DNA from: Caballeronia catudaia | Lineage (GTDB): Bacteria; Pseudomonadota; Gammaproteobacteria; Burkholderiales; Burkholderiaceae | Assembly: GCF_001544755.2 (NCBI RefSeq) | Contig: NZ_FCOF02000030.1 | Location: 1 to 64,000 of the forward strand | Reading direction: 5' to 3' | Length of the DNA: 64,000 nt | Notes under the pieces: model-generated | Databases searched by the model: none | What the model saw: only the letters and a program-made list of their open reading frames with translations | What the model was told of the DNA's origin: nothing | Translations under genes and position numbers: made by a program | Part shown: positions 12,988 through 31,926 of the stretch, in pieces | Layout: each line of letters begins with the position of its first letter | Position numbering within the stretch: position 1 is the stretch's first letter

Positions 12988-13204
12988 ACAGTGAGCCGAC
13001 ATTAACATCATTGCCGAACGGTAGGCAACGGAATTTTCGAGGAGAAGGAGAATGGCGCGCGCGCAGTCGTTTGCGGAGCGGCCGAAGGGGCGATCGATAA
13101 ATGGGGGGCGTGTAAAATCAGCCGCGCATTGCGCATCATCCAGGTCCGATGCTTCGCCCCGCATGAGGCCAAGTCCATACTCCGATCCTCGCCGAGGTGA
13201 ACCG

Positions 13205-13843: not shown

Positions 13844-13871
13844 TTTTTCTCCGCCGAAGCGCATCGGCGGC

Positions 13872-13900
13872 TGGACAATTAGATCGATCTACCTTATTGT
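13872..13900 (+). promoter_or_regulatory. Sigma70-type promoter with palindromic operator TAGATCGATCTA in the spacer
   Basis: TGGACA (13872-13877) and TATTGT (13895-13900) are separated by exactly 17 bp. The perfect 12-bp palindrome at 13880-13891 lies entirely in that spacer, the arrangement of a repressor-controlled promoter. The same 12-mer recurs at 16975 and 31911. Start of the oxidoreductase/AroE-like/LacI operon. Confidence 0.7.
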
Positions 13901-13919
13901 CCTCCAACGGAGACGACAA

Positions 13920-14966
13920 ATGAACGAGACCGGCTTCAATATCGCCGTCGTGGGCGCGGGCATGGCATCCGCGCCGCATCTGGCGAGCCTTCTGGCATTG
14001 CAGGATCGCGCGACCGTACGCCATGTCGTCGCGCGTTCGGAGGAGCGCGCAGGCGCGTTCGCGCGTCGGTTGCCGCACGCGCGCGTGACGCTCGATCTCG
14101 ACACCGCCCTCGCCGACGAACACGTCGATGGCGTACTGCTGCTGACCCCGCCGAACACGCATCTCGAGCTCGGTGCCAGGATTGCGGCGGCTGGCAAGCA
14201 TCTGCTGGTCGAGAAACCGATCGATGTCACCACGTCCCGCGCGCGTGAGCTGGTCGCGCTATGCGATGCACGCGGCATCGTCGCGGCGGCGGTACTGCAA
14301 CATCGCACGCGCGACGCATCGCGCAAGCTGCGTGAACTGCTCGACGCACGCGCGCTCGGCGAGATTCACAGCGCGAGCATCGCCGTGCCGTGGTGGCGTC
14401 CGCAGTCGTATTACGACGAACCGGGACGCGGCACGCTGGCCCGCGACGGCGGCGGCGTGCTGATGACGCAAGCCATTCACACGCTCGATCTTTTCCTGTG
14501 GCTGGTCGGCCTTCCGGACGACGTCTTCTGCTACGCGATCACCAGCCGTGCGCACCGCATGGAATGCGAAGACACCGTGGCGGGCGTCATGAAGTATCGA
14601 AACGGCTGCGTCGCGTCGCTGCACGCGAGCACGGCGATCTTTCCCGGCTTCCCCGAACGCATCGAAATCAGCGGCAGTAAAGGAAGCGCCACGCTCGGCG
14701 GCGGCAGGCTCATCGTGCAGTACATGGACGGCGCCGTGCTCGAAGAAGGCGAAACGGCTTCCCTCGGTTCCGGCGCGAACCCGATGGCCTTCTCGCATCA
14801 CGCGCATCAGGCCGTCATCGACAATTTCATCGAAGCCGCCACGCACGGAGCCGAGCCGGTCGCCTCGCTACGGAGCGCGCTCGACGTCCATCTGCTGATC
14901 GATGCGCTGATCGCGTCGTCGGCGAATTATCGACCCATGCCCGTCAACCCAGGCTCGTCATCATGA
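13920..14966 (+). CDS. Gfo/Idh/MocA-family NAD(P)-dependent oxidoreductase
   Basis: 348 residues. Rossmann start NIAVVGAGMASAPHLASLLAL, then the hallmark LLVEKPIDVT (residues ~98-107) and C-terminal substrate-domain segments GGVLMTQAIHTLDLFLWLVG and ISGSKGSATL. Relatives oxidise sugar, cyclitol or hydroxy-acid hydroxyls. First gene of the operon after an operator-controlled promoter; its stop overlaps the next start (ATGA). It may oxidise a ring or side-chain hydroxyl of the island's substrate. Confidence 0.9.
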   Translation: MNETGFNIAVVGAGMASAPHLASLLALQDRATVRHVVARSEERAGAFARRLPHARVTLDLDTALADEHVDGVLLLTPPNTHLELGARIAAAGKHLLVEKPIDVTTSRARELVALCDARGIVAAAVLQHRTRDASRKLRELLDARALGEIHSASIAVPWWRPQSYYDEPGRGTLARDGGGVLMTQAIHTLDLFLWLVGLPDDVFCYAITSRAHRMECEDTVAGVMKYRNGCVASLHASTAIFPGFPERIEISGSKGSATLGGGRLIVQYMDGAVLEEGETASLGSGANPMAFSHHAHQAVIDNFIEAATHGAEPVASLRSALDVHLLIDALIASSANYRPMPVNPGSSS

Positions 14967-15787
14967 CTTCCGCACTGAATGCCGCCGTCGCCGGAGACAC
15001 GCGCCTTTTCGCCATCGTCGGCGATCCGATCGCGCAGGCGCGCTCGCCGCTCGTCTTCAACGAGATTTTCCAGCGCATGGGCGTGAATGCCGTGCTCGTG
15101 CCGATGCAGATTCCGTCCGCGTCGCTTAGCGCCGCCATCGCCGGACTGAAGACGATCGGCAATCTCGATGGCATCGTCGTCACGGTGCCGCACAAGATCT
15201 CGATGACCGGCCTCGTCGACCGGTTGCTGCCGATCGCGCAGAAAGTGGGTGCGATCAACTGCATGCGCCGCACGGAAACGGGCGAATGGGCCGGCGAGAT
15301 GTACGACGGCGAAGGCTTCACGCGCGGGCTGCGCAAAGAGGGCCACGAGCCGCGCGGCATGTCGGTGTTTCAGGCGGGCGCGGGCGGAGCCGGCAAGGCG
15401 CTGGCGCATGCGCTCGCGAGCGCGGGCGTGAAGTCGCTGCAATTGACCGACGTGGATCGCGCAAAGCAGGACGCGCTGATCGCGGATCTGGCGCAGGCCT
15501 ATCCGACGCTGAACGTCTCGGCCGGAAGCGCCGCACCCGAAGATGTCGATATGGTCGTCAACGCGACGCCCTGCGGCATGGCGGCGGGCGATCCGCTGCC
15601 GTTCGATCTCGCCCGGCTCGACCGCCGCGCACTGGTGGCCGACATCATCATGAAGCCGGAGCGGACTCGACTGCTGCATCAGGCCGAAGAACGCGGCCAT
15701 CGCGTTCATCTCGGCCGGCATCTTCTGGAGAATCAGGCGGAAATCGTCGCCGAGTTTTTCGGCCTGAAGCACGCTGAGCACGCTTGA
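14963..15787 (+). CDS. Shikimate/quinate dehydrogenase-like oxidoreductase (AroE family paralogue)
   Basis: 274 residues. AroE-like blocks: IVGDPIAQARSPLVFNEIF, TVPHK (catalytic Lys), VGAINCM, AGAGGAGKALAHALA (cofactor loop) and VNATPCGM. It departs from housekeeping AroE in the substrate pocket: ARSPLVFN instead of S-S-SP--H-N, and MYDGEGF instead of NTDG-GF. A catabolic or alternative-substrate dehydrogenase is therefore more likely than a biosynthetic one. Overlaps the upstream gene by 4 bp. Confidence 0.85.
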   Translation: MTSALNAAVAGDTRLFAIVGDPIAQARSPLVFNEIFQRMGVNAVLVPMQIPSASLSAAIAGLKTIGNLDGIVVTVPHKISMTGLVDRLLPIAQKVGAINCMRRTETGEWAGEMYDGEGFTRGLRKEGHEPRGMSVFQAGAGGAGKALAHALASAGVKSLQLTDVDRAKQDALIADLAQAYPTLNVSAGSAAPEDVDMVVNATPCGMAAGDPLPFDLARLDRRALVADIIMKPERTRLLHQAEERGHRVHLGRHLLENQAEIVAEFFGLKHAEHA

Positions 15788-15861
15788 GCATGCCCGAGCG
15801 GAAACGGGACCTTGCGGCCGATTCGGATACACTCCGGGCATACGACTCATCGACCGTTCCA

Positions 15862-16890
15862 ATGTCCCGAGGCAAACCAGGTTCTCCCGTCACGCTGCTG
15901 GATATCGCCAACGATCTCGGCCTGTCCAGAGCAACGGTCTCGCTCGTGCTGCGCAACAGCCCGCGCATTTCCGAAGCCACGCGCGAGCGCGTGCTGGAAG
16001 CGTTCAAGCGCAAGGGCTACGTCTACAACCGCCATGCGGCGGGCATGCGCAGCAATCGGACGAACACCGTCGGCGTCGTCGTCAACGATCTCGCCAATCC
16101 CTACTTCACGATGCTGGTCCGCTCCATCGAGGCCAGTCTGAGCACGCAGGGATTCATGACGCTGCTCGGCAATACCGACGAATCGCTCGAACGGCAAAGC
16201 CGCTTTCTCGAGACCGTGCGGCAGCACAACATCGACGGCCTCATCGTCTGTCCGACCGAATCGACCACGGCCGCCCAGATGCGCCAGGTGCTGGCGTGGG
16301 GCATTCCATGCGTATTCGCTTCACGCTACGTCGCCGGGCTTCAGGCCGATTATGTCGGCGCGGACAATCGCCGTGGCATGGCGCTCGCAACCGCGCATCT
16401 GATTTCCCTCGGGCATAAACGCATCGCGATGATCGGCGGCGTCATGCGCGCCTCCACCGGCAGCGACCGCGCCGAGGGCTATCGCGACGCGCTGCGCGAC
16501 GCAAAAATGAAGCTCGACGAACGGCTGCTCGTCCCGTCGCCGCTGACGCGTCACGACGGCAAGCGCATCATCACCGAGCTGCTCGCGCTTAAAAATCCGC
16601 CGACAGCGGTGGTGTGCGGCAACGACATCGTCGCGTTCGGCGTGATGCTCGGCCTGCGCGCACACGGCATCGAACCCGGCGCCGACTTCGGCGTCGTGGG
16701 CTTCGACGACGTGCCCGAGGCCGAGCTCTGGGAGCCGCCGCTGACCACGGTCCAGGTCTTGCAGGACGACATCGGTCGCGCCGCCGCCGATCTGCTGCTC
16801 AAGCGCATGACGGAGCCGTCGCGCACGCCTACGCGCATCGTCTCCGAGCCGGTTCTCGTCATCCGCGGAACCTGCGGCGCGCGCAAATAA
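15862..16890 (+). CDS. LacI-family transcriptional regulator
   Basis: 342 residues from ATG 15862; upstream in-frame starts (TTG 15784, ATG 15790) would add up to 26 residues before the DNA-binding domain. LacI headpiece VTLLDIANDLGLSRATVSLVLRNSPRISEATRERVLEA is followed by the hinge and periplasmic-binding-like core (VGVVVNDLANPYFTMLVRSIE, GFDDVPEAELWEPPLTTV). The headpiece recognises even palindromes with a central CG, and TAGATCGATCTA fits that. Last gene of its operon; probable controller of the three operators at 13880, 16975 and 31911. Confidence 0.9.
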   Translation: MSRGKPGSPVTLLDIANDLGLSRATVSLVLRNSPRISEATRERVLEAFKRKGYVYNRHAAGMRSNRTNTVGVVVNDLANPYFTMLVRSIEASLSTQGFMTLLGNTDESLERQSRFLETVRQHNIDGLIVCPTESTTAAQMRQVLAWGIPCVFASRYVAGLQADYVGADNRRGMALATAHLISLGHKRIAMIGGVMRASTGSDRAEGYRDALRDAKMKLDERLLVPSPLTRHDGKRIITELLALKNPPTAVVCGNDIVAFGVMLGLRAHGIEPGADFGVVGFDDVPEAELWEPPLTTVQVLQDDIGRAAADLLLKRMTEPSRTPTRIVSEPVLVIRGTCGARK

Positions 16891-16900
16891 GCGTTCGCGT

Positions 16901-16924
16901 CCCGAACGCGCGCCGTTCGGGTTT
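16901..16924 (+). terminator. Rho-independent-like terminator after the LacI gene
   Basis: CCCGAACG and CGTTCGGG form a perfect 8-bp stem around a 5-nt loop, followed by TTT. It begins 11 bp past the LacI stop and separates this operon from the TRAP operon. Confidence 0.6.
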
Positions 16925-16974
16925 CCCTTAGAAAAATCCGCTTGCACCGTATCCGCACAACTTTTACTCTGTAG

Positions 16975-16986
16975 TAGATCGATCTA
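16975..16986. promoter_or_regulatory. Operator palindrome TAGATCGATCTA upstream of the TRAP operon
   Basis: Perfect 12-bp palindrome 90 bp upstream of the binding-protein ATG. Promoter boxes are less clear here than at the other two copies; a weak TTGCAC/TACTCT pair 17 bp apart lies just before it. Second of three identical copies. Confidence 0.6.
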
Positions 16987-17075
16987 ACACATTTTCGCAG
17001 TGGCACGCGGCCGTGCCGTCGGCGCCGCCTTCGTCGCAGTTCAATATGGGCATCAGAACCGTAGGAATCCGATAT

Positions 17076-18062
17076 ATGCGTGACTACCTTCTCTCTCGCC
17101 GCAAACTGTTGATGCTCACGGCGGCGTCCGCGGCCGCGGGCTGCCTGCCGCGCTTCGCCAGTGCGGACACCCAGACGATCCGTATCGGCGATGTCGTCGA
17201 CCGCCACAATCCGGAAGTCATCACCGAGAACCTGATGGCCAAGCGTCTGAAGGAAACGACCGGCTTCGACGCGCGCGTGTTTCCGGACGGCGTGCTCGGT
17301 TCGCACACGCGCATGAACGAGCAGTTGCGCAACGGCACGCTCGAAGTCACGGTCACGAACGTGGCCGATCTCGAAGGCTACGACAAGCGTCTCGGCCTGT
17401 TCGCGATGCCGTTCGCGTTCACCGACCGCAAATCGCTCTTCGCGGCGCAGGACGGCGCGCTCGGCAAGGCCTACGCGGGCATCCTCGACAATCTCGGCTT
17501 CGTGCTGCTCGGCTGGTTCGACTCGGGCCTGCGCAGCGTCTACAACCGCGCGCGCCCGATCAACGAACCCGGCGATCTGAAAGGCCTCAAGATCCGCACG
17601 CAGGGCAACCAGATCATGATCGCGACGTTCAACCAACTCGGCGCGCAGGCCACGCCGCTCGACACGACGCAGATCTATTCCGCGCTGCAGCAGGGCGTCG
17701 TCGATGGCGCCGAGAACTCCGTCACCTTTTTCGTGCAGCAGCATCACAGCGAAGTGGCGAAGTACTACTCGTATACAAACCACTTCTTTTCGATCGATCC
17801 GATGCTCGCCAGCAAGAAGTGGTTCGATTCGCTCGACCCGAAGAAGCAGGACGCCGTGAAGGAAGCCGCCGCGCAGGCGCAGCAGCACGAGCGCGATTTG
17901 TGGCTGGCTTCGGACGCGAAATATCTCGCCGAAGCCAAGAAGAACGGCGCCGCGTTCAACGACGCGAATCTTCCCGCGTTCCAGGCGGCGGTCAAGCCGA
18001 TCTACACGAAGTACCGCGCGAACTTCGCCGAACTGGGCAGCTACCTGCCCGCCCTCGGATAA
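17076..18062 (+). CDS. TRAP transporter substrate-binding protein (DctP family)
   Basis: 328 residues from ATG 17076 (TAGGAA upstream). The N-terminus LLSRRKLLMLTAASAAAGCLPRFASA has an SRRKLL twin-arginine-like motif, so export may be by Tat. The DctP core includes KIRTQGNQIMIATFNQLGAQATPLD, whose Arg normally salt-bridges the ligand carboxylate, and YSALQQGVVDGAENS. It delivers a carboxylate-bearing substrate to the DctQM genes that follow. First gene of the large operon. Confidence 0.9.
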   Translation: MRDYLLSRRKLLMLTAASAAAGCLPRFASADTQTIRIGDVVDRHNPEVITENLMAKRLKETTGFDARVFPDGVLGSHTRMNEQLRNGTLEVTVTNVADLEGYDKRLGLFAMPFAFTDRKSLFAAQDGALGKAYAGILDNLGFVLLGWFDSGLRSVYNRARPINEPGDLKGLKIRTQGNQIMIATFNQLGAQATPLDTTQIYSALQQGVVDGAENSVTFFVQQHHSEVAKYYSYTNHFFSIDPMLASKKWFDSLDPKKQDAVKEAAAQAQQHERDLWLASDAKYLAEAKKNGAAFNDANLPAFQAAVKPIYTKYRANFAELGSYLPALG

Positions 18063-18084
18063 CTCCAGCGAGAGGTTCCCCGAC

Positions 18085-18651
18085 ATGAAACCCGATTCGC
18101 GTGCGCGCGTTTCCCGGGACGGCATCAACAACACTGCGGCGTTGCGCGTGCTCGCGAGCGTCGAAGACTTGCTGATAGCGGTCCTGGTTTTCGCGATCTT
18201 CTGCGTCGTGCTGGCGGGCATCCTGTCCCGCTTCGTCTTCCACGTCTCGCTGTCGTGGAACATCGAGGTCAGCGTCACGCTGATGATCTGGATGACCTTC
18301 ATCGGCATCGCGGTCGGCGTGCGCGACAAGGTGCATGTCGCCTTCGAACTCTTCGAAGACAAGCTGAGCGGACGCTGGCTCATGCTCGCGTCCTTCGTCC
18401 AGATGCTGCTGATGGGCTTTCTGCTGGTCGCGCTCGCGTGGGGCGGCTGGCAGTTCATGCAGCTCGGGCTCAATCAGTTGACGCCGAGCGGCATCCCGCA
18501 GTGGATCTCGTTCGCCGCGATTCCGGCCGGCAGCGCGCTGGGCCTGCTGCATCTGCTGGCGCACGCATGGGACCTGGCCATCGATGTCGATCTGGACTCC
18601 GGAACGCAACGGGGCCACGGCCACGGCCATACCGAGACGAGGGCGCAATGA
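18085..18651 (+). CDS. TRAP transporter small permease (DctQ)
   Basis: 188 residues with four hydrophobic spans. The DctQ pattern LSWNIEVSVTLMIWMTFIGIAVGVRDKVHVAFELF is present. The C-terminal tail is rich in His/Gly (RGHGHGHTETRAQ). Its stop overlaps the DctM start (ATGA). Confidence 0.9.
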   Translation: MKPDSRARVSRDGINNTAALRVLASVEDLLIAVLVFAIFCVVLAGILSRFVFHVSLSWNIEVSVTLMIWMTFIGIAVGVRDKVHVAFELFEDKLSGRWLMLASFVQMLLMGFLLVALAWGGWQFMQLGLNQLTPSGIPQWISFAAIPAGSALGLLHLLAHAWDLAIDVDLDSGTQRGHGHGHTETRAQ

Positions 18652-19913
18652 TTCTGACCATCGGACTTCTCGCGCTGTTCGTCGTGGCGGGCGCGCCGAT
18701 CATCGCGTCGCTGGGCGCGGTGGGCACCATCGACGGCCTGATGCAAGGCCTGCCGCTGACCAACATTGCGCAGGCGATGTATCACGGCGTCGACTCGTTC
18801 ACGCTGCTCGCCGTGCCGCTGTTCATCCTAGCCGGCGAAATTCTCTTTCACTCGGGCTCGGCGGGCCGCCTCGTCAACTTCATGAACCTGCTTGTGGGAC
18901 GCGTGCCAGGCGGGCTGGGCGTCTCCGCCGTCGCCTCGACGATGGTGTTCTCGGGCCTGAGCGGCTCGGTCAACGCCGATGCCGCCGCGATCAGCTCCGC
19001 CATGCTGCCGTCGATGGAAAAGGCCGGCTACCGCAAGGAATGGTCGTCCGCGATCATCGCGGCGGCGGCCGGGACCGGCATTCTGATTCCGCCGTCGATC
19101 ACCATCATCGTGCTGGCGACCGTCTCGAACATGTCAGTGACGAAGCTGTTTCTCGCGGCGACGCTGCCCGCGATTCTCGTCGGCGTCACGAAGATGTTCA
19201 TCATCATGTACCGCGCGCGCTCGGAGCCGCCGGTGGCGCCGGTGCACTTCAGCGTGCCGGAGCTCGGCCGCGCCTTCTTGCTGGCGATTCCCGCGCTGGG
19301 CGCGCCGATCATCATCCTCGGCGGCATCTTCATGGGCTTCTTCACCGCGACCGAATCGGCGGCGGCGGCGGTGGCCTACGTGACGATCATCACGCTTCTC
19401 CAGCGCTCGATTCCGTCTCGCGCGTGGCTCGGCATTCTGATCAAGGCCGGCCGCACGAGCGCGATCGTGCTGTCGCTTGTCGGCGTCGCGCAGATCCTCG
19501 GCTATATGCTCGCGTACAACTCGGTGGGCGAACAGGTGGCCGAGTTCGCGTCGCAACTGACCGGCAACAAGATCGTCTTCACGGTGTTCATCGTGGTGGT
19601 GTTCTGGCTGCTGGGCGCGCTGCTCGACGGCATTCCCGCGCTCATCCTGCTGATTCCGCTGTTTCTGCCGATCGCGCAGGAAGCCGGCTTCAGCGACATC
19701 CATTTCGCGATTCTCGCCATCGCCATCGTCGGCATCTCGCTCGTCACGCCGCCGATCGGCACGGCCTGTTTCATCGTCACCGGCGTCGCCAACATCAAGA
19801 TGGTGAATCTGGTGCGGCCCATGCTGCCATTCATGGCGGTCATGTTCGTGACCATCCTGCTGCTGGCTTTCGTGCCGGCGTTCTCCGAATGGCTACCTCA
19901 TCTCCTGTACTGA
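18648..19913 (+). CDS. TRAP transporter large permease (DctM)
   Basis: 421 residues from ATG 18648; the open frame upstream is a shadow of the DctQ gene. Typical DctM blocks: VPLFILAGEILFHSGSAGRL, GSVNADAAAISSAMLPSMEKAGY, TGILIPPSITIIVLA, FMGFFTATESAAAAVAY and VTPPIGTACFIVTGVAN. It is the Na+-driven channel subunit that works with DctP and DctQ. Confidence 0.92.
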   Translation: MILTIGLLALFVVAGAPIIASLGAVGTIDGLMQGLPLTNIAQAMYHGVDSFTLLAVPLFILAGEILFHSGSAGRLVNFMNLLVGRVPGGLGVSAVASTMVFSGLSGSVNADAAAISSAMLPSMEKAGYRKEWSSAIIAAAAGTGILIPPSITIIVLATVSNMSVTKLFLAATLPAILVGVTKMFIIMYRARSEPPVAPVHFSVPELGRAFLLAIPALGAPIIILGGIFMGFFTATESAAAAVAYVTIITLLQRSIPSRAWLGILIKAGRTSAIVLSLVGVAQILGYMLAYNSVGEQVAEFASQLTGNKIVFTVFIVVVFWLLGALLDGIPALILLIPLFLPIAQEAGFSDIHFAILAIAIVGISLVTPPIGTACFIVTGVANIKMVNLVRPMLPFMAVMFVTILLLAFVPAFSEWLPHLLY

Positions 19914-20692
19914 CGCCGCGCGGCGAACGTCCGCTCGCGCTCGTCACGGGCGCGCGCCGCGGCATCGGCGCAAGCATCGCGATCGAACTGGCGCAACGCG
20001 GCTTCGACCTCGCGTTGCTCGATATCGACGACGACGGTGCGCACGAAACCATGGCCGCCGCCGAATCGCACGGCGTGCGCGCGCGCTTCTACCGGCACGA
20101 TCTCGCCGATAGCGCCGCGCATCGGGCGCTGGTCGAACGCATCGTTGCGGACTGCGGGCCGGTCGCGTGTCTCGTCAACAACGCGGGCGTGTCCGCGGAG
20201 CAGCGTGGCGACCTGCTGGAGCTCAACGAGCAGTCCTACGACCGCGTCGTCGACATCAACATGCGCGGCACGTTCTTTCTTACGCAGGCCGTGGCGCGCC
20301 ACATGGCCGCTCACGCAGGCGCTCAGGATGGATATGCGCGCAGCATCGTCACGGTGTCGTCGGTCAGCGCCGAACTGGCGTCGACGGAGCGCGGCGAATA
20401 TTGCATGTCCAAGGCCGGACTCGGCATGCTCACCAGGCTCTTCGCGCTGCGTCTCGCGCCGCTTGGGATCGGCGTGTTCGAAGTGCGGCCCGGCATCATC
20501 CGCACGCCGATGACCGAAGGCGTCGCTGCGCGCTACGACGAACGCATCGCCGACGGCATCGTGCCGATGCGGCGCTGGGGCGTGCCGCAGGACGTCGCCT
20601 CGGCCGTCGCGGCGCTTGCCTCGGGGCAAATGGCGTTCGCCACCGGCAGCGTGCTCAACATCGACGGCGCGCTCTCCGTTCCGCGTCTCTAA
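19889..20692 (+). CDS. Short-chain dehydrogenase/reductase (FabG-like)
   Basis: 267 residues. ATG 19889 lies inside the DctM end (25-bp overlap). Cofactor motif TGARRGIGASIA, NNAG, and the active site SSVS...EYCMSKAG (Tyr-x-x-x-Lys). Very like the minus-strand SDR at 29897-30670, which shares ERGEYCMSK. Probably interconverts a 3-hydroxyacyl and 3-oxoacyl intermediate or a ring hydroxyl. Confidence 0.9.
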   Translation: MATSSPVLTPRGERPLALVTGARRGIGASIAIELAQRGFDLALLDIDDDGAHETMAAAESHGVRARFYRHDLADSAAHRALVERIVADCGPVACLVNNAGVSAEQRGDLLELNEQSYDRVVDINMRGTFFLTQAVARHMAAHAGAQDGYARSIVTVSSVSAELASTERGEYCMSKAGLGMLTRLFALRLAPLGIGVFEVRPGIIRTPMTEGVAARYDERIADGIVPMRRWGVPQDVASAVAALASGQMAFATGSVLNIDGALSVPRL

Positions 20693-20712
20693 CCCAATCC
20701 ATTCATCGCGAC

Positions 20713-21876: not shown

Positions 21877-21886
21877 GGAGCCATCG

Positions 21887-22645: not shown

Positions 22646-22657
22646 CGCCACTCCGCC

Positions 22658-23476: not shown

Positions 23477-23491
23477 CAAGGACACGACAAC

Positions 23492-23950
23492 ATGAGCCAT
23501 CCCCTGCTCTTCGACGAAATCGAGCCCGGTCTCACCTTCGCGACGTCGGGCATCGTCGTCACCGAGAGCCACGTCGTGCAATTCGCGGGCATCTCGGGCG
23601 ATTTCTTCGATGTCCACATGGACGACGAATTCGCGCGCGGCGTCGGCTTTCCCGGCCGCGTCGCGCATGGTCTCCTGTGCCTCGCGATGGTCGACGGCCT
23701 CAAGAACCGCGCGGCGACGCAATTTGCCGCGATCGCGACGCTGGAGTGGACGTATCGCTTTCACAAGCCGGTGCTGATCGGCGACAGGGTTCAGGGCCGC
23801 ATTCGCGTGCTGGACAAGCGCGCGACGCGCCGCTCCGATCGCGGCATCGTGCGTTTGCAGGTCGAAGTACACAACCAGGACGGCGTGCTGATCCAGGAAG
23901 GACTCAACGTGCTGATGGTCCGCGCGGGTGCGCATAACGAGGAAAAGTAA
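23492..23950 (+). CDS. MaoC-like hot-dog-fold enoyl-CoA hydratase
   Basis: 152 residues. FDEIEPGLTFATSGIVVTESHVVQFAGISGDFFDVHMDDEFARGVGFPGRVAHGLL carries the MaoC Asp/His dyad (DVHMDD). Clear paralogue of the 8341-8835 product, in the same position relative to a CoA-transferase gene. It ends one base before the next ATG. Confidence 0.9.
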   Translation: MSHPLLFDEIEPGLTFATSGIVVTESHVVQFAGISGDFFDVHMDDEFARGVGFPGRVAHGLLCLAMVDGLKNRAATQFAAIATLEWTYRFHKPVLIGDRVQGRIRVLDKRATRRSDRGIVRLQVEVHNQDGVLIQEGLNVLMVRAGAHNEEK

Positions 23951-23951
23951 G

Positions 23952-25475
23952 ATGAAGCGTGCAAACCTGACTGATGCGGATTTCATGGCGGCGGCGATCT
24001 TCGATGGCGCGACCGTCGTGCTGAGCGGCTCGGGCGGCGGACTGGTCGAGGCCGATCACATCACCGAGGCCATCGAGCGGCGCTTTCTGGCGACGGGTCA
24101 TCCGCGCGATCTCACGCTGATCCACGCGCTCGGGATCGGCGATGGCGTGAAGAGCGGCATCAGCCGTTTCGCGCACGAAGGCATGGTGAAGCGCGTCATC
24201 GGCGGTCACTGGACCTGGTCCAGGCCGATGCAGAAGCTCGCGCGCGAGGAGCGCATCGAGGCTTACACCCTCCCCGCCGGCGTGATCCAGACGCTGATCC
24301 GCGAAGCCGGCGCGGGCCGTCACGGTCTCGTCACGCACATCGGCCTCGATACCTTCGCCGATCCGCGCCACGGCGGCGGCCGCGTCAACGCCCGTGCGCG
24401 CGAGGATCTCGTCGAAGTCGTCACGCTGGGCGGCAAGGAACTGCTCTGGTACAAGCCCTTCACGATCGACTTCGCGATCGTGCGCGGCACCACGGCGGAT
24501 ATGCAGGGCAACCTGACATCGCGTGAAGAACCCGCCGATATCGACGCGTTCGCCGCCGCGCTCGCCGCGCACAACAGCGGTGGCCGCGTGTTCGCGCAGG
24601 TGCGCGACGTCTCCGCCATGCCGATCACGCCGGCGCGCGCGGTCACCGTGCCGGGCGTGCTCGTCGACGATATTTGCGTGTACGCCGATCAGAAGCAGAC
24701 CACTGCCGCGGGCTACGACCCGGCCATCAGCGGCGAGCAGCCCGCGCCCGACACGCGCACGCCGCCGGCGCTGCCCACGGGCATCCGCTACATCATCGCG
24801 AAGCGCGCCGCGCAGGAGCTTGAGCACGGCGCGTGCGTCAACTTCGGCTATGGCCTGCCCGACGGCATACCCGCCGTCGCACACGAAGAAGGCGTGGACA
24901 TTAGCTGGACCGTGATCGAACAGGGATCGCACAACGGCGAACTGCTCGGCGGCGACCTGTTCGGCGCCACGCGCCACGCGAGCGCGATCCTCAAATCCAA
25001 TGACCAGTTCGATCTGTTCAGCGGCGGCGGCATCGATATCGCCTTCCTCGGCATGGGCGAGCTGGACGCGCAAGGCAACGTCAACGTCTCGTGGCTCGGC
25101 GAGAACATCGTCGGCCCCGGCGGTTTCGTCGATATCACGCAGCGCACGCGCAAGGTCGTCTTCTGCGGCACCTTCGAGGCGAAAGGGCTGGAAGTCGAGC
25201 TGGAAGACGGCGAAGTGCGCATCCGGCGTCACGGCGCGGTGCCGAAGCTGGTTCAGCAGGTGCGCCACATCACGTTCAGCGGCAAGCGCGCCCGCGCGGA
25301 CGGCCAGCGCGTGATCTATGTGACCGAACGCGCCGTCTTCGAACTGACGGCCGACGGCCTGCAACTGATCGAATTGGCGCCGGGCGTGGATCTCGTGCGC
25401 GACGTGCTCGAACGCATGCCCTTCGAAGTCGCGCTGCATCCGTCGCTGCGTGTCGCGGCGACCAGCGCGGGCTAA
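23952..25475 (+). CDS. Type I CoA-transferase (fused), second of three
   Basis: 507 residues from ATG 23952 with AGGAAAAG upstream. N-terminal VVLSGSGGGLVEADHITEAIERRF; catalytic glutamate in VIEQGSHNGELLGG; FSGGGIDIAFLGMGELDAQGNVNVS. Same architecture as the 9056-10660 protein. Expected to activate or recycle an acid of the pathway. The nearby MaoC and acyl-CoA dehydrogenase genes support a CoA-thioester route. Confidence 0.88.
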   Translation: MKRANLTDADFMAAAIFDGATVVLSGSGGGLVEADHITEAIERRFLATGHPRDLTLIHALGIGDGVKSGISRFAHEGMVKRVIGGHWTWSRPMQKLAREERIEAYTLPAGVIQTLIREAGAGRHGLVTHIGLDTFADPRHGGGRVNARAREDLVEVVTLGGKELLWYKPFTIDFAIVRGTTADMQGNLTSREEPADIDAFAAALAAHNSGGRVFAQVRDVSAMPITPARAVTVPGVLVDDICVYADQKQTTAAGYDPAISGEQPAPDTRTPPALPTGIRYIIAKRAAQELEHGACVNFGYGLPDGIPAVAHEEGVDISWTVIEQGSHNGELLGGDLFGATRHASAILKSNDQFDLFSGGGIDIAFLGMGELDAQGNVNVSWLGENIVGPGGFVDITQRTRKVVFCGTFEAKGLEVELEDGEVRIRRHGAVPKLVQQVRHITFSGKRARADGQRVIYVTERAVFELTADGLQLIELAPGVDLVRDVLERMPFEVALHPSLRVAATSAG

Positions 25476-25494
25476 ACGCGAACCGGAGAGATCG

Positions 25495-26655
25495 ATGGAC
25501 TTCACGCTCAGCGACACGCAGAAGATGATGATCGAGACGGCGCGCCGCTTCGTGCGCACCGAATTGCAGCCGCTCGAACAACAAGTGGAAGACGAAGGCG
25601 CACTCGCGCCCGGGATCGCGCGCGGCTTGCGGTCGCGCGCCCGGGCGCTGGGCCTGTATGCGGTGAATATGCCCGCCGAACTCGGCGGCGGCGGATTGAG
25701 CACGGTCGACTCGATGTTGTGCGAGGAGCAGTTCGGCCACAGCTCCGACATTCTGGTGCGGCGCGCCTTCGGCAACGTCTACGACGCGCTCCTGGCGTGC
25801 GAGGGCGAGCAGATCGAACGCTGGCTCAAACCCGCGATTGCCGGCGAGCGTACCTGCGGCCTCGCGATGACCGAGACCGGCGCGGGCTCGGACGCACAGG
25901 GCATCAGGACTACGGCGCGTAAAACCGGGCGTGGCTGGGTGCTGAACGGCAGCAAGCACTTCATCAGCGATGCGCAATGGAGCGACTTCTTCCTCGTCTC
26001 GGCCCGCACCGGCGAGAAGGAAATCTCGCTGTTCGCGGTCGACAAGAATCTGCCCGGCTTCGCGCTCGGCAAGGACCAACAGATGATGGGCCTGCGCGGC
26101 ACGCCCCACCACGAGCTCTTTTTCGACGATGTTGCGCTGGAGCCGATGACCCTGATCGGGCGCCAGGGCGAAGGATTCAGACTGGCGATGAACATGTTGG
26201 GCCGCGTGCGCCTCGCGCTGATCGGCGCGCGCGGCATCGGCAAGGCTGCGCATGTGCTCGAAATGATGATCGGGTACGCGGGCGAGCGGCGTCAGTTCGG
26301 CACGCGCATCGGGGATTTCCAGATGATCCAGCAGCTCATCGCGGACAGCGTGATGGAGATCAACGCGGCGCGGCTGATGCTGCTCAACGCCGCCAGCATG
26401 ATGGACGCGGGCCAGGACGCGCGCGACTGGATTTCGATGGTCAAGGTGCAGGCCTCCGAGACGCTCGGCCGCGTGGTCGACCGCGCGGTGCAGGTGTTCG
26501 GCGGCATGGGCTTTTGCAAGGAACTGGCCATCGAACGCTACTACCGCGATGCCCGCATCTATCGCATCTTCGACGGCACGTCGGAGATTCATCGCGGCAT
26601 CATCGCGCGAAATGCGATGAAGCGCGGCGCGGCCCTGTTCGACCTTCATCGATAA
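25495..26655 (+). CDS. Acyl-CoA dehydrogenase with Asp at the usual catalytic Glu position
   Basis: 386 residues from ATG 25495 (GGAGAG upstream). FAD/acyl-CoA motifs: GLAMTETGAGSDAQGIRTTA, LNGSKHFISDAQWSDFFLV, RRQFGTRIGDFQMIQQLIAD, QVFGGMGFCKELAIERYYRDARIYRIFDGTSEIHRGI. The block that normally reads YEGTSEIHR is FDGTSEIHR, placing Asp where short- and medium-chain enzymes carry the base Glu. Some ACADs use Asp there, so an unusual substrate rather than loss of activity is plausible. Confidence 0.88.
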   Translation: MDFTLSDTQKMMIETARRFVRTELQPLEQQVEDEGALAPGIARGLRSRARALGLYAVNMPAELGGGGLSTVDSMLCEEQFGHSSDILVRRAFGNVYDALLACEGEQIERWLKPAIAGERTCGLAMTETGAGSDAQGIRTTARKTGRGWVLNGSKHFISDAQWSDFFLVSARTGEKEISLFAVDKNLPGFALGKDQQMMGLRGTPHHELFFDDVALEPMTLIGRQGEGFRLAMNMLGRVRLALIGARGIGKAAHVLEMMIGYAGERRQFGTRIGDFQMIQQLIADSVMEINAARLMLLNAASMMDAGQDARDWISMVKVQASETLGRVVDRAVQVFGGMGFCKELAIERYYRDARIYRIFDGTSEIHRGIIARNAMKRGAALFDLHR

Positions 26656-26661
26656 AAGGCC

Positions 26662-28257
26662 ATGAGAAAAGTCATTTCAGCGGATGCGGCGGCCCGGCTG
26701 CTGCGCGACGGCGACATCGTCAGCATCAGTTCCTCCAGCGCGCTCGGCTGCCCCGACAAGATCCTCGAGGCCATCGGCGAGCGCTTCGAGCGCGAGGGAC
26801 AGCCGCGCGATCTCACCACGCTGAACCCGATCGCCGCGGGCGACATGTACGGCGTCAAGGGCATCGATCATCTCGCCCGGCCGGGCCTGCTCGCGCGCAC
26901 GCTGGCGGGCTCGTATCCGAGCGGCCCGTCGTCGCTGCCGATGCCCCACGTTTGGCGCATGATCGTCGACAACGAAATCGAGGCCTATAACATTCCGAGC
27001 GGCATCCTGTTCGACATGCACCGCGACGCGGCCGCGAAGCGTCCCGGCGTGCTGACCAAGGTGGGCATGGGCACGTTCGTCGATCCCGACTTCCAGGGTT
27101 GCGCGATGAACGCCGCCGCCGCCGCGCACCCGGTCGTGCGCAAGGTGTCCTTCGATGGCGCTGACTGGCTCTACTTCCCTGCGATCGCGCCACGCGTGGC
27201 GATCCTCCGCGCGACCACCGCCGACGAAGCGGGCAACCTCGCCTACGAACACGAAGGCGCGCTGCTTGGCGGCATCGATCAGGCACTGGCCGCGCGCAAC
27301 AACGGCGGCATCGTGATCGCGCAGGTCAAGCGCGTGGTGAAAGCCGGCACGCTGCGGCCGCACGACGTTCGCGTGCCGTGCAATCTGGTCGATTACGTCG
27401 TCGTCGATCCGGACCAGTGGCAGACCACGCAGACGCCTTACGATCCGTCCATCAGCGGCGAAATCACGCTGCCGATGGATGCGTTCGCGCCGACGGCGTG
27501 GGGACCGGAGAAGGTCATCGCCCGACGCGCGGCGATGGAACTCGCGCATGGTTGCGCGGCCAATCTAGGCTTCGGCATTTCCGCCAACGTGCCGCGCATC
27601 CTGCTGGAAGAAGGCCTGCACGGCGAAGTGACGTGGGCCATCGAACAGGGCGCGGTCGGCGGCATGCCGCTGCTCGGCTTCGCGTTCGGCTGCGCATCGA
27701 ATGCGGATGCGATCGTCGCGTCGCCGAATCAGTTCACCTATTTTCAGGGCGGCGGCTTCGATGTCGCCCTGCTGTCCTTCCTGCAAGTCGATGCCGACGG
27801 CAGCGTCAACGTCTCGCGGCTCGCATCGAAACCGTATCTGACAGCGGGCTGCGGCGGTTTCGTCGATATCACCGCACACGCGCGCCGTATTGTGTTCTCG
27901 GGCTTTTTCACCGCCGGCGCGCAACTGGAAGTCGGCGGCGGCAGGCTCGGCATCGTGAAGGAAGGACGCACCCGCAAGTTCGTCCGGACGGCCGAGCAGA
28001 TCACGTTCAGCGGCCGCGTCGGGCGCGAGCGCGGCCAGCGCGTGACGTATGTCACCGAGCGCTGTGTCGTCGATCTGCTCGACGACGGCCTGACGGTGCG
28101 CGAGATCGCGCCCGGCGTCGATTTGCAGCGCGATATTCTCGATCAGGCCGAGGTCGCGCTGAAGGTCGCACCCGATCTGCGTCAGATGGATGCGGCGCTT
28201 TTCACCGACGCGCCCTTCGGACTCCGGCTCAAACCCCGCGAAAATCGCCATGACTGA
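26662..28257 (+). CDS. Type I CoA-transferase (fused), third of three
   Basis: 531 residues starting MRKVISADAAARLLRDGDIVSIS, 6 bp after the dehydrogenase gene. Catalytic glutamate in WAIEQGAVGGMPLLG; QGGGFDVALLSFLQVDADGSVNVS. Two fused CoA-transferases in one operon suggests that they act on different acids, or one on the substrate and one on a product. Its stop overlaps the next gene by 8 bp. Confidence 0.88.
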   Translation: MRKVISADAAARLLRDGDIVSISSSSALGCPDKILEAIGERFEREGQPRDLTTLNPIAAGDMYGVKGIDHLARPGLLARTLAGSYPSGPSSLPMPHVWRMIVDNEIEAYNIPSGILFDMHRDAAAKRPGVLTKVGMGTFVDPDFQGCAMNAAAAAHPVVRKVSFDGADWLYFPAIAPRVAILRATTADEAGNLAYEHEGALLGGIDQALAARNNGGIVIAQVKRVVKAGTLRPHDVRVPCNLVDYVVVDPDQWQTTQTPYDPSISGEITLPMDAFAPTAWGPEKVIARRAAMELAHGCAANLGFGISANVPRILLEEGLHGEVTWAIEQGAVGGMPLLGFAFGCASNADAIVASPNQFTYFQGGGFDVALLSFLQVDADGSVNVSRLASKPYLTAGCGGFVDITAHARRIVFSGFFTAGAQLEVGGGRLGIVKEGRTRKFVRTAEQITFSGRVGRERGQRVTYVTERCVVDLLDDGLTVREIAPGVDLQRDILDQAEVALKVAPDLRQMDAALFTDAPFGLRLKPRENRHD

Positions 28258-29029
28258 TCGCTTCGTTTCCATCGTCCGCGATGCTGCCGTCGCGACCGTC
28301 ACGGTGGACCGGCCGGCCAGGCTCAACGCGCTGACGCCCGGCATGCTGGACCAGCTCGAAGACGCGGCCCGCGCACTGGAGGCCGGTAATGAAACGCGCG
28401 TCGTCATCCTGACGGGCGGCGGCACGAAAGCATTCTGCGTCGGCGCCGACATCAACGAATGGGCCGCGCTCAAGCCGCTCGACATGTGGCGCCATTGGGT
28501 GCGCCGGGGTCATCAGGTCTTCGACCAGTGGGCGCGGCTGCGCCAGCCTGTGATCGCGGCGATCAACGGTCATGCCTTCGGAGGCGGTCTGGAACTGGCG
28601 ATCACCGCCGACGTGCGCATCGCGTCCGAAGCGGCCGGTTTCGCGTTGCCGGAAGCGTCGATCGCAACCTGTCCCGGCTGGTCCGGCACGCAGCGGCTCG
28701 TGCGCCTGATCGGCGCAAGCCAGGCGAAGTATCTGGCCTTGAGCGGCGAGCGCGTGACGGCCGCCGATGCACAGGCGTGCGGCCTCGTGCATGAAGTCGT
28801 GCCACACGCGCGCGTGCTGGAACGCGCGCATCGGCTGGCGCTGGCGATGGCGTCGCGCGCGCCGGTATCGCTGCAACTGACCAAGCAGTTGATCAACGCG
28901 GCGAGCGGCGAGGAAACCGGCTCGACACTGGAAGCGATGGCGGGCGCGCTCGCGGCCAGCACCGAGGACGCGGCCGAAGGCATCCGCAGCTTTCAGGACA
29001 AGCGTGCGCCGATCTACGTCGGACGTTGA
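28250..29029 (+). CDS. Enoyl-CoA hydratase/isomerase (crotonase family)
   Basis: 259 residues from ATG 28250, overlapping the CoA-transferase end. GGTKAFCVGADINEWAAL and INGHAFGGGLELAITADVRIAS are the oxyanion-hole segments, and both glutamates are kept (GGGLEL, ALPEASIATCPG). Last gene of the TRAP-led operon; only 13 bp separate it from the end of the convergent minus operon. Confidence 0.9.
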   Translation: MTDRFVSIVRDAAVATVTVDRPARLNALTPGMLDQLEDAARALEAGNETRVVILTGGGTKAFCVGADINEWAALKPLDMWRHWVRRGHQVFDQWARLRQPVIAAINGHAFGGGLELAITADVRIASEAAGFALPEASIATCPGWSGTQRLVRLIGASQAKYLALSGERVTAADAQACGLVHEVVPHARVLERAHRLALAMASRAPVSLQLTKQLINAASGEETGSTLEAMAGALAASTEDAAEGIRSFQDKRAPIYVGR

Positions 29030-29042
29030 GAGGCGGCGTGAA

Positions 29043-29888
29043 TCAGCAGCACTCGAACAGGCGCTCGCGGCAGGTGCGCAAAGTTTCGTCGGCGGGGCGC
29101 GCCCACCAGTCGAGCTTCGAGAAAATCTCCACTTCGACGGGGCCGTCATAGCCGGTGGCCTCCACCGCCGCGCGCAGTCGCTTGAGATCGATGACGCCAT
29201 CGCCCATCATCCCGCGATCCTGCAACGGGTCGCGGGTTTCGACGAGCCAGTCGCACACGTGCAGCGCGAGGATGCGTTCGGCCGCGCGGGTGATGGCCGG
29301 CATCAACGCCGGATCCCACCAGACGTGGTAAGCATCGATGGCCACGCCGAAATGCCCCTCGCGCGACGGGTCGAGCCGGTCGCACCAGTCCAGCGCCTGA
29401 TCGAGCGTGTTGAGCAAGCTGCGATCGGCGGCGTAGAGCGGATGCAGCGGTTCGAGCGCGATGCGCACGCCGGTCTCTTTCATCGTCGGTCGTAAGGCGG
29501 CGAGGCCATCGAGAATCTGCTCGCGGGCATCGTCGATGTCGCGCGAACCGGGCGGCAATCCACCGACGACCGCGACCAGCACCGGCGCACCAAGCACGGC
29601 GGCGGTCTCCAGCGCGCGACGGTTGGAATCGATCGCGGCGCGGCGGCCGGCGGCGTCGTTCGCCGCGAAATAGGCCGTGCGGCAGTATGCGTTGACCTTC
29701 AGGCCCGCCGCGCGGATCGCGCTGGCGGCGGCCTGCGGCTTGTTCTCGTCGATTTCCTGGCGCCACGGCGTGATCCAGCCGAAACCCTGGTCGGCGATGC
29801 GGCCGGCCGTCACCTCGATCGGCTCGCGATAGCCGAGCGTGCCCGTGTTGATGCAGCAGAGATCGCCGCGTCCGTTCAAGTCGCGCAT
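29043..29888 (-). CDS. Sugar phosphate isomerase/epimerase-type TIM barrel
   Basis: 281 residues from ATG 29888 with TTGAGG upstream. Xylose-isomerase-like TIM-barrel blocks: TGTLGYREPIEVTAGRIADQGFGWITPW, GVRIALEPLHPLYAADRSLLNT, FGVAIDAYHVWWDP, LHVCDWLVETRDPLQDRGMMGDGVIDLKRL, with Glu/Asp/His metal ligands. This superfamily includes isomerases, epimerases and 3-dehydroshikimate dehydratases. With the AroE-like enzyme nearby, a dehydratase-like role is possible but unproven. Confidence 0.85.
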   Translation of the reverse strand: MRDLNGRGDLCCINTGTLGYREPIEVTAGRIADQGFGWITPWRQEIDENKPQAAASAIRAAGLKVNAYCRTAYFAANDAAGRRAAIDSNRRALETAAVLGAPVLVAVVGGLPPGSRDIDDAREQILDGLAALRPTMKETGVRIALEPLHPLYAADRSLLNTLDQALDWCDRLDPSREGHFGVAIDAYHVWWDPALMPAITRAAERILALHVCDWLVETRDPLQDRGMMGDGVIDLKRLRAAVEATGYDGPVEVEIFSKLDWWARPADETLRTCRERLFECC

Positions 29889-29896
29889 GGTGTGCC

Positions 29897-30670
29897 TCAA
29901 TAGCGTTGGATCATCAGGCCGCCGTCGACGCGCACTTCCTGCGCCACGGTATAGGGCAAAAGGCCCGCCGCCATCGTGCGGATCACGCGCGCCACGTCTT
30001 CCGGCTGGCCCCAGCGCGGCGTCGCTGTCATGCCTTCGCCGATGAGCTTGTCGTACCTGGCCTTCGACGGCGCCGTCATCTCGGTCAGGATCAGGCCCGG
30101 CTGCACCTCGAACACGCCGATATCGTGAGGAGCCAGGCGCAGCGCGAACAGGCGCGCCGCCATCGACAGCGCGCTCTTCGACATGCAGTATTCGCCGCGC
30201 TCGATGGTGGCGACCACCGCGTTCGACGACGTCACGAAAACGATGCTGCGCGCGCCCTCGCCCGCCGGCTTTTGCGCCACCATCAGCCGGGCCACGGCCT
30301 GCGTCAGAAAGAAGGTGCCGCGTGTGTTGATGTCGAGGCAGCGGTCGTAGCTTTGCGCGCTCACGTCGAGCAGATCGCCGCGACTGAGCACCGAGACGCC
30401 CGCATTGTTGACGAGACAGTCGATGCCGCCAAAGCGTTCGACGATCGCGTTCAGGACACTCGCGTGCTTATCGATATCGCCGATATCGAGATCGAAGGTC
30501 ACGCAGACGCGGCCCAGCGCCTCGACTTCGGCTGTGAGCGTATGAAGCCGCTCTTGATCGTCGAGCGCGATGGCGGCGATGTCGAAGCCTTCGGCGGCAA
30601 GCGCCAGCGCGGCGGAACGCCCGATCCCGCGCGACGCGCCCGTTACCACGGCAATCCTTGTCATGTTCAT
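29897..30670 (-). CDS. Short-chain dehydrogenase/reductase (FabG-like)
   Basis: 257 residues. TGASRGIGRSAALALA, NNAGVSVLSRGDLLDVSAQSYDRCLDIN, and EYCMSKSALSM (Tyr-x-x-x-Lys). Strongly similar to the plus-strand SDR at 19889. Its ATG overlaps the stop of the acyl-CoA dehydrogenase gene (ATGA), so the two are coupled. Confidence 0.9.
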   Translation of the reverse strand: MNMTRIAVVTGASRGIGRSAALALAAEGFDIAAIALDDQERLHTLTAEVEALGRVCVTFDLDIGDIDKHASVLNAIVERFGGIDCLVNNAGVSVLSRGDLLDVSAQSYDRCLDINTRGTFFLTQAVARLMVAQKPAGEGARSIVFVTSSNAVVATIERGEYCMSKSALSMAARLFALRLAPHDIGVFEVQPGLILTEMTAPSKARYDKLIGEGMTATPRWGQPEDVARVIRTMAAGLLPYTVAQEVRVDGGLMIQRY

Positions 30671-31800
30671 GCCTTCAGCAGTTGGCGCGCGATGATGACC
30701 CGCTGGATCTGATTCGTGCCTTCGTAGATCTGCGTGATCTTCGCGTCGCGGTACAGGCGTTCCACTTCATAGCCGCGGATATAGCCGCTGCCGCCGAAGA
30801 TCTGGATCGCGTTGCTGGTGTGCTGGACGGCCGCATCGCCGGCGAAGCACTTGGCCATCGACGCCGCGGCGGTCGCCTCGATGCCCGCGTCCATCTTCGA
30901 CGCGGCGGAGCGCACGAGCAGCCGGGCCGCTTCGGTGTCCTTGGCCATGTCGGCCAGCATGAACTGGACCGCCTGAAACTCGGCGATCGCCTGGCCGAAC
31001 TGCTTGCGCATCCTGGCCTGTTCAACGCTCGCTTCCAGCGCGGCCTGAATGATGCCCACAGCGAGCGCCCCGATGCCGACGCGCCCTTTCTCGAGCACGC
31101 TCATCATCATGTGAAAGCCGCGGCCTTCCGTGCCGAGCAGCGCGTCCGCCGGCAGTTTCACGTCGTCGAAATGCAGCTCGCCGACCTGCGACGCGCGCTG
31201 GCCCAGCTTGTGCTCCTTGGGCCCGCGCGACACGCCCCGCGACGCGCAATCGACGATGAAGATGCTCATTCCGCGCTTGCCCGCGGCGGGATCGGTGCGC
31301 GCCAGCACGAGCGCCACGTCGGCGACCGGTGCATTGTGTATCCATAGCTTGGAGCCGCTGAGCGACCAGCCTTCGCCATCGCGCACGGCGGTCGTCTTCA
31401 CGCCGGATACGTCGCTTCCCGCGCCCGCCTCGGTGATGCAGTACGCGCCCTTCAACTCGGCGCGCACGAGCGGCCCGATCCAGCGGTCGATCTGCGCCGG
31501 CGTGCCGTGCTTGCCCAGCAAGGTGCCGAGCAACTCGACCAGACCGCACTGGTCCGCGACGGACGCATAGCCGCGGCTGATCTCCTCCATCACGATCGAA
31601 TACGCGAGGCAGTCCAGCCCCGCGCCGCCCATGGATTCCGGCACCGTGATGCCAAACAGCCCGGTCTCCCCCATCTGCCGATAGATGTCGGCCGGAAAGC
31701 GCTCGTCGCGGTCTAGCGCCTCGGCCTGCGGCCGGATGACCTCGTTGGAAAAGCGGCGAGCCATGTCGGCCACTTGCTGGTGCTCGGTGGACAGAATCAA
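30667..31800 (-). CDS. Acyl-CoA dehydrogenase (short/branched-chain type)
   Basis: 377 residues from TTG 31800, with GAGGAGACCAG in front. MILSTEHQQVADMARRFSNEVI, YCITEAGAGSDVSGVKTTAV, LSGSKLWIHNAPVADV, RKQFGQAIAEFQAVQFMLADM and YRDAKITQIYEGTNQIQRVIIARQL are standard; the catalytic Glu is present in YEGTNQ. First gene of the minus operon under the third palindromic operator. It should introduce the alpha,beta double bond into an acyl-CoA. Confidence 0.92.
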   Translation of the reverse strand: MILSTEHQQVADMARRFSNEVIRPQAEALDRDERFPADIYRQMGETGLFGITVPESMGGAGLDCLAYSIVMEEISRGYASVADQCGLVELLGTLLGKHGTPAQIDRWIGPLVRAELKGAYCITEAGAGSDVSGVKTTAVRDGEGWSLSGSKLWIHNAPVADVALVLARTDPAAGKRGMSIFIVDCASRGVSRGPKEHKLGQRASQVGELHFDDVKLPADALLGTEGRGFHMMMSVLEKGRVGIGALAVGIIQAALEASVEQARMRKQFGQAIAEFQAVQFMLADMAKDTEAARLLVRSAASKMDAGIEATAAASMAKCFAGDAAVQHTSNAIQIFGGSGYIRGYEVERLYRDAKITQIYEGTNQIQRVIIARQLLKA

Positions 31801-31897
31801 CTGGTCTCCTCCATTGGCGGCGGCGTTTCGAAGCCGCGATACGGTTAGGGCAGCGCCGGCGCATCGGCCCTCGATGGGTCGCCGATCCGGTCACGAA

Positions 31898-31926
31898 ACT
31901 TTAAGCTAGTTAGATCGATCTAGCAA
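31898..31926 (-). promoter_or_regulatory. Promoter with palindromic operator TAGATCGATCTA (third copy)
   Basis: Read on the minus strand: -35-like TTGCTA (31926-31921), a 17-bp spacer, then -10-like TAAAGT (31903-31898). The palindrome at 31911-31922 overlaps the -35 end and spacer. Same geometry as 13872-13900, so one repressor can silence both. Confidence 0.7.

Follow-up and report, generated by a model that had tools for sequence, protein, structure and literature searches.

The 64,000-nucleotide stretch of Caballeronia catudaia DNA analysed here (contig NZ_FCOF02000030.1, positions 1 to 64,000; hereafter the window) carries a catabolic island in which the 12-mer palindrome TAGATCGATCTA stands at the promoters of three operons. 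We predict, with a probability of about 0.92, that the product of the gene at 15862-16890, a LacI/GalR-family protein encoded within the first of these operons, uses this 12-mer as its operator. That the three operons form a local LacI-family regulon is well supported. The 12-mer is conserved at the three promoters and follows lacI across genomes. The operator sites, promoters and operons are listed below.

13880..13891, no strand: operator site 1, TAGATCGATCTA, exact match inside the 17-bp spacer of promoter 1, present in 9/9 islands
13872..13900, plus strand: promoter 1, TGGACA-17-TATTGT, from a consensus scan
13920..14966, plus strand: GFO/IDH/MocA-type oxidoreductase, first gene of operon 1 (Pfam)
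14963..15787, plus strand: AroE-like (shikimate-dehydrogenase-like) gene of operon 1 (Pfam, NCBIfam)
15862..16890, plus strand: LacI/GalR-family regulator, last gene of operon 1 and proposed repressor (PF00356, Peripla_BP domains), orthologs 92-99% identical
16901..16921, plus strand: terminator-like hairpin between operons 1 and 2, from a scan; orthologs share its 3' part and T tract
16942..16970, plus strand: putative promoter 2, TTGCAC-17-TACTCT, read by eye
16975..16986, no strand: operator site 2, TAGATCGATCTA, exact match directly downstream of the promoter 2 -10 box, present in 9/9 islands
17013..29029, plus strand: operon 2, 12 genes, TRAP-led (Pfam), gene order largely conserved
29043..31800, minus strand: operon 3, acyl-CoA (coenzyme A) dehydrogenase, short-chain dehydrogenase/reductase (SDR) and xylose-isomerase-like TIM barrel (Pfam)
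31898..31926, minus strand: putative promoter 3, TTGCTA-17-TAAAGT, read by eye
31911..31922, no strand: operator site 3, TAGATCGATCTA, exact match across the -35 edge and into the spacer of promoter 3

Exact matching placed the 12-mer at the three positions given in the initial annotation and detected no further match in the window with two or fewer mismatches. Shuffled sequence yielded a mean of 1.36 matches at this tolerance, and the three of the window were all exact. In the whole C. catudaia genome (7,726,733 bases, 156 contigs) the exact 12-mer occurred three times, always within the window, and the genome-wide motif search that the initial annotation had proposed as a check thus returned no exact copy outside the three promoters. 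The reversed control of the 12-mer had no exact copy in the same genome. A first-order Markov model built from 104,373 bases of this genome predicts 0.11 exact copies per 7.73-Mb genome and 0.00026 per 18-kb stretch, against the three found, which agrees with the earlier judgement that a chance recurrence is very unlikely. Between 12.9 and 32.1 kb, eight perfect CG-centred 12-bp palindromes were detected, three of which are TAGATCGATCTA; the remaining five are GC-rich and all different. TAGATCGATCTA is the sole repeated palindrome of this kind in the operon region.

The 12-mer had been described as lying in or at the edge of a 17-bp spacer at two of the promoters, which holds for sites 1 and 3; site 2 lies downstream of the -10 box. 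Promoter 1 was the sole promoter reported by the consensus scan of 13700-17100, and in the nine islands its -35 box was invariant (9/9) whereas its -10 box had one base changed in one island. The distance from the end of site 1 to the start codon is 28 bp. Promoter 2 was recognisable with single-base changes in 7/9 islands. Site 3 overlaps the final two bases of the minus-strand hexamer TTGCTA and the 17-bp spacer preceding TAAAGT; promoter 3 was identical in 7/7 sequences except for one -10 base in C. zhejiangensis. The hexamers of promoters 2 and 3 recur in most orthologs. A longer operator around site 1 (GACAAT...ATTGTC) was rejected: it coincides with the hexamers of promoter 1, C. fortuita has it in broken form, and sites 2 and 3 lack it.

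A profile scan of the genome contigs with the aligned LacI orthologs revealed nine loci, namely eight orthologs of 93-99% identity and a ninth locus in Pelosinus (24% LacI match) that was without the 12-mer. The window and the eight orthologous loci constitute nine islands in Caballeronia and Paraburkholderia (the eight being those of C. cordobensis, C. ptereochthonis, C. fortuita, C. temeraria, C. zhejiangensis, C. pedi, P. susongensis and P. kirstenboschensis). Their genes were compared for rows of at least 60% identity, leaving aside the mechanical open reading frames (ORFs) g8984, g12011 and g20722m. Sites 1 and 2 were each exact in all nine islands, the window included, and site 3 was present in seven, precisely those whose operon-3 TIM gene is at least 91% identical; in the two genomes without site 3 (G100 and G301) the best TIM relatives were only 50-58% identical. 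The recurrence upstream of orthologous operons that the initial annotation had proposed as a check was found in 9/9, 9/9 and 7/7 of the islands holding them. Altogether, the nine genomes contain 26 exact copies of TAGATCGATCTA, every one inside the islands (three in P. susongensis, three in P. kirstenboschensis and two in C. pedi). In C. cordobensis a second copy lies 34 bp from site 2. The AroE-like gene between the oxidoreductase gene and lacI is missing in C. pedi, and site 1 is kept there. In C. zhejiangensis the acyl-CoA dehydrogenase and SDR orthologs of operon 3 were not found in the stretches compared, and the exact operator still stands directly before the remaining TIM gene. This reduced operon 3 of C. 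zhejiangensis consists of a TIM-barrel gene with one internal TGA (L070; G215:C9:107610-108464).

Conservation around the sites was measured in 12-bp blocks by ungapped alignment on the core. The mean pairwise identity in the core was 1.00 at all three sites, compared with 0.56-0.87 in the two blocks touching the core, which hold the promoter hexamers, and 0.26-0.60 further out; three blocks on the upstream side of site 2 stood apart with 0.63-0.76. The flanks of the 12-mer differ between the three sites.

The 12-mer was found in ten of 299 genomes of the family: six have a cluster of two to four copies (G000, G100, G124, G215, G232 and G256) and four have a single copy (G007, G050, G118 and G149). 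Apart from C. catudaia itself (G000), the six are the genomes of C. cordobensis, C. ptereochthonis, C. fortuita, C. temeraria and C. zhejiangensis from the island comparison. No island gene was found within 10-20 kb around the single copies in G118, G050 and G149, and the single copies of all four genomes were treated as chance. A LacI ortholog (cut-off E up to 1e-100) was present in six of the six genomes with at least two sites and in none of the 293 others (Fisher p ~1e-12, uncorrected for kinship).

The protein at 15862-16890 is a LacI/GalR-family protein by its domains. Its helix-turn-helix (HTH) domain PF00356 scored 45.4 bits versus a cut-off of 27, PF00532 and PF13377 were above their cut-offs, and the PDB homologs PurR, CcpA and LacI align over most of its length. 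With 204.2 bits versus a cut-off of 310, it falls outside the NCBIfam MalI subfamily (NF007449). The half-sites TAGATC|GATCTA give an even palindrome with a central CG at all three promoters, which the initial annotation had judged suitable for a LacI protein. This judgement follows the family rule, since 1251 of 1303 motifs are even and 1173 are CG-centred in the LacI-family survey (PMC4052901).

Comparison of the recognition residues pointed in the same direction. In Camas et al. (PMC2978694), amino acids AA-15 and AA-16 are tied to nucleotides NT-5 and NT-4 of the half-site and AA-20 to NT-6, Arg-20 going with G at NT-6; this code is restricted to TVSR proteins, and 1149 of 2639 domains counted there are non-TVSR. 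The window LacI has R15, A16 and L20 (TVSL), and the half-site of the 12-mer, counted from the centre, reads C1 T2 A3 G4 A5 T6. With Leu at AA-20, a base other than G is therefore expected at NT-6, and the 12-mer has T.

We compared 31 LacI relatives over about 4 kb each (3/3 of one set and 29/58 of another, one shared), grouped into operator classes by AA-15/16/20 that were named after the palindromes had been seen, in genomes that are partly related. In the K/S/L class TGGAACGTTCCA was found in 6/9, and none of the listed motifs within the 4 kb of the other 3/9. The R/S/L class had TGGATCGATCCA in 3/3 and the T/A/M class TTAATCGATTAA in 4/4, while the 4-kb stretches of the T/A/L class contained none of the listed motifs in 10/10. 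In the T/A/M relatives L091, L094, L102 and L103, a GATTAATCGATTAACC palindrome with a single outer mismatch precedes the regulator's own gene by 135-145 bp. For the R/A/L loci of family f57 the listed motifs were absent within 4 kb (0/4), and at 12-20 kb TRRATCGATYYA was found in 4/4, at ten places altogether. Copies of TRRATCGATYYA within about 10 kb of lacI, relative to the genome total, were 2/3 in G859, 1/8 in G684 (where the lacI contig is only 12.4 kb), 3/6 in G875 and 4/5 in G680. In the R/S/L genomes, copies near lacI relative to the genome total were 1/2 (G676), 1/1 (G881) and 1/1 (G920), and in the other-class genomes G431, G880 and G934 none of eight copies was on a lacI contig.

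The LacI proteins of f57, a family of the same class (G859, G684, G875, G680), share R15/A16/L20 with the window LacI and have TRRATCGATYYA, a palindrome similar to the 12-mer, near lacI; they differ in sites that are looser at NT-5/NT-4, several of them imperfect palindromes, and in their target genes. G841, of another class, encodes a LacI relative (41% identity, TASL, R15/A16/L20) whose gene is separated from ABC-transporter genes by a stretch with the exact TAGATCGATCTA. No second exact copy occurs in the 5.8 Mb of this genome, and the 12-mer there is embedded in a 16-bp palindrome. Unlike in the window, the next operon in G841 is an ABC transporter. The f57 and G841 relatives have only 41-44% identity to the window LacI. 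The sites of these relatives lend strong support to the predicted LacI assignment.

The neighbours of the f57 genes are GH92, TonB-receptor and PfkB-kinase genes, joined by GH47 and GH2-mannosidase genes in G680 (L111), and the TRRATCGATYYA sites of L108-L111 likely belong to a mannoside/N-glycan regulon. For L108-L110, those genes that were tested partly match the set of L111. A link of f57 to SuxR of sucrose use was dropped in view of the GH92/GH47/GH2-mannosidase neighbours. Four f57 matches of the TTGATCGATCTA type were not counted as operators because they fall within the 5' end of a gene for a PfkB-type kinase.

Another possible binder of the 12-mer is the TetR-family regulator encoded directly upstream of site 1. 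The features concerned are these.

13205..13843, plus strand: TetR-family regulator of the neighbouring module, not a likely binder of the 12-mer
12973..12988, no strand: probable own palindrome of TetR, consensus TACTTACTAGTAAGTA, with 2 mismatches here, adjoining the divergent enoyl-CoA hydratase/MFS/CoA-transferase genes

That TetR binds TAGATCGATCTA and controls the three operons would accord with the position of its gene, with its presence in 8/9 islands and with the palindromic form of TetR operators. A TetR ortholog (cut-off E up to 1e-40) was found in 7/299 genomes, namely five of the six multi-site genomes, G146 and G055 (a 52% relative). TetR also correlates with the sites, to a lesser degree than LacI (5/6 genomes, Fisher p ~2e-9, uncorrected for kinship), as is expected of a neighbour. 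The sites do not travel with tetR, however, and dissociation was observed in both directions: among the 299 genomes five had both, one had TetR alone (at least 85% identity) and one had sites alone. C. cordobensis (G256) has kept four sites and has no TetR at E 1e-40, whereas G146 has TetR and no copy of the 12-mer in its whole genome, and the second TetR copy of C. catudaia itself (G000, contig C35) is likewise without the 12-mer. Moreover, TetR has a different inverted repeat of its own, as the initial annotation had recognised. TACTTACTAGTAAGTA is exact between tetR and the divergent enoyl-CoA hydratase gene in 7/7 other tetR islands and in G146; it was absent from the C. cordobensis stretches compared and from the surroundings of the C35 TetR copy. 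Most likely, TetR is part of an adjacent module (enoyl-CoA hydratase, MFS, CoA-transferase) that has a site of its own, and control of the three operons by TetR is highly improbable. LacI is preferred, in line with the initial annotation, because it co-occurs with multiple sites in 6/6 genomes while TetR is dissociated from them both ways, and because TetR has TACTTACTAGTAAGTA while distant LacI relatives with R15/A16/L20 carry a palindrome like the 12-mer. The C35 copy is part of a paralogous island (L056, 48001-64000) without lacI ortholog or 12-mer, which holds the TetR copy (85-86%), a DUF993 relative (61%) and a TIM-barrel relative (51%). In G146 as on contig C35, a DUF993 relative (61-62%) lies next to the TetR copy.

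A regulator encoded elsewhere, with the local LacI using another sequence, is conceivable as distant regulators are able to act in trans, but it is very unlikely given the 6/6 versus 0/293 co-occurrence of at least two sites with a LacI ortholog, the same or similar palindromes near the genes of relatives with the same recognition residues, and the standing of TAGATCGATCTA as the only repeated palindrome of its kind in the operon region. Finally, the 12-mer contains two GATC words and occurs in three identical copies, as might a restriction/methylation signal, a mobile-element end or a chance repeat, and its places with up to two mismatches in the C. catudaia genome exceed those of the reversed control (129 vs 58). 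Of these 129 places, 123 have two mismatches and, among the matches listed, three have one (L057-L059); none of the latter was a convincing promoter site, two being inside long ORFs and one at most 27 bases from the 5' end of a 202-aa ORF. Such an origin is scarcely credible for exact copies that number three in the whole genome, that all stand at promoters with flanks differing between sites, that are conserved position by position in nine islands and of which the Markov model expects so few.

Like the TetR correlation, several other observations weigh against the LacI assignment. Promoters 2 and 3 failed the consensus scan, and C. fortuita and C. temeraria have promoter 2 in a shifted or altered form. 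The palindromic part common to the three sites spans 12 bp, whereas operators of the family usually measure 16-22 bp (PMC4052901). At the hinge residue for the central CG the protein has Met62, hydrophobic but not Leu, when aligned by eye to Leu56 of E. coli LacI. PMC2978694 gives Leu in 82% at this position. Near the f57 lacI genes, four of the ten TRRATCGATYYA places fall slightly within the start of an ORF in its longest reading. Of the eleven f57 one-mismatch hits, four are within the PfkB-kinase gene, where they are probably a coding coincidence, and three elsewhere in the genomes. The island counts, moreover, are not independent because the nine islands are related.

By Pfam and NCBIfam the operon contents were correct as initially annotated, including the 12 genes of the TRAP-led operon. 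The order in operon 2 is DctP, DctQ, DctM, SDR, DUF993, enoyl-CoA hydratase, aldo/keto reductase, MaoC, CoA-transferase, acyl-CoA dehydrogenase, CoA-transferase and enoyl-CoA hydratase, and its first start codon is at 17013 or perhaps at 17046 or 17076. The DUF993 protein (PF06187) is encoded at 20722-21876 of the window. In a literature search covering few subscription journals, neither a mention of DUF993 nor any account of the island or its regulator was found, and the letters of TAGATCGATCTA appeared only in an unrelated context; nothing joined Caballeronia, LacI, TRAP transporter and regulon, and a Burkholderia query gave an off-topic result only.

In the proposed mechanism, an effector-free LacI dimer would bind each palindrome and block RNA polymerase. 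It would cover the -35/-10 spacer of promoter 1, the stretch just past the -10 box of promoter 2 and the -35 edge and spacer of promoter 3, positions that would suit a repressor excluding RNA polymerase. The circuit is probably autoregulated because operon 1 includes lacI. Release of the repressor by a small molecule, probably a pathway intermediate such as a polar sugar acid or a cyclitol that enters via the TRAP transporter, would switch on uptake and a CoA-dependent breakdown pathway, and the neighbouring TetR would run a separate module through its own palindrome.

Our analysis assigns a predicted regulator and operator to a three-operon catabolic island of Caballeronia/Paraburkholderia. 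With the regulator assigned, the substrate becomes searchable, as the inducer that frees the repressor is expected to be either this substrate or an intermediate close to it. The residue-matched operator classes outside TVSR offer a possible prediction rule for many unstudied LacI proteins. We consider the chances about even that the LacI-family recognition code extends to a non-TVSR clade including the window LacI. In such an extended code, Leu or Met at AA-20 would read T at NT-6, Arg or Thr at AA-15 would go with T at NT-2 and Lys with A, and AA-15/AA-16 would set NT-5/NT-4, with K,S and R,S giving GG, R,A giving AG (purines in f57), T,A with M20 giving TA and V,S of MalI giving AA. As a general code this is only a suggestion, given that the palindromes were known when the classes were set and that some of the genomes are related to one another. 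If true, the operators of many uncharacterised regulators would be predictable from sequence, and a sugar-type repressor would preside over a mixed sugar-like/beta-oxidation-like pathway that includes an uncharacterised DUF993 protein.

As a gene switch, this LacI regulon is of an ordinary kind and a further case of a known type. It resembles the LacI/GalR local regulons of Ravcheev et al. (2014; PMC4052901) in its HTH and periplasmic-binding-like domains, its even CG-centred palindrome, its site near the start codon and its regulator gene within its own regulon. It is unlike them in having a 12-bp core, not 16-22 bp, and in comprising TRAP and CoA/beta-oxidation-type genes with no evident single-sugar pathway. 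E. coli MalI shares with the window LacI the TVSL recognition helix, T at NT-6 and the central CG. The E. coli malI-malX region contains two palindromes with T at NT-6, GATAAAACGTTTTATC and a copy with one mismatch, which we take to be the 16-bp sites of MalI. MalI binds a 16-bp site at both promoters, according to PMC5543585. The two systems differ in the bases at NT-4 and NT-2, in AA-15/16, which are V/S in MalI and R/A here, and in their target genes. The less ordinary part of the finding is the residue-to-base pattern outside the published TVSR subgroup.

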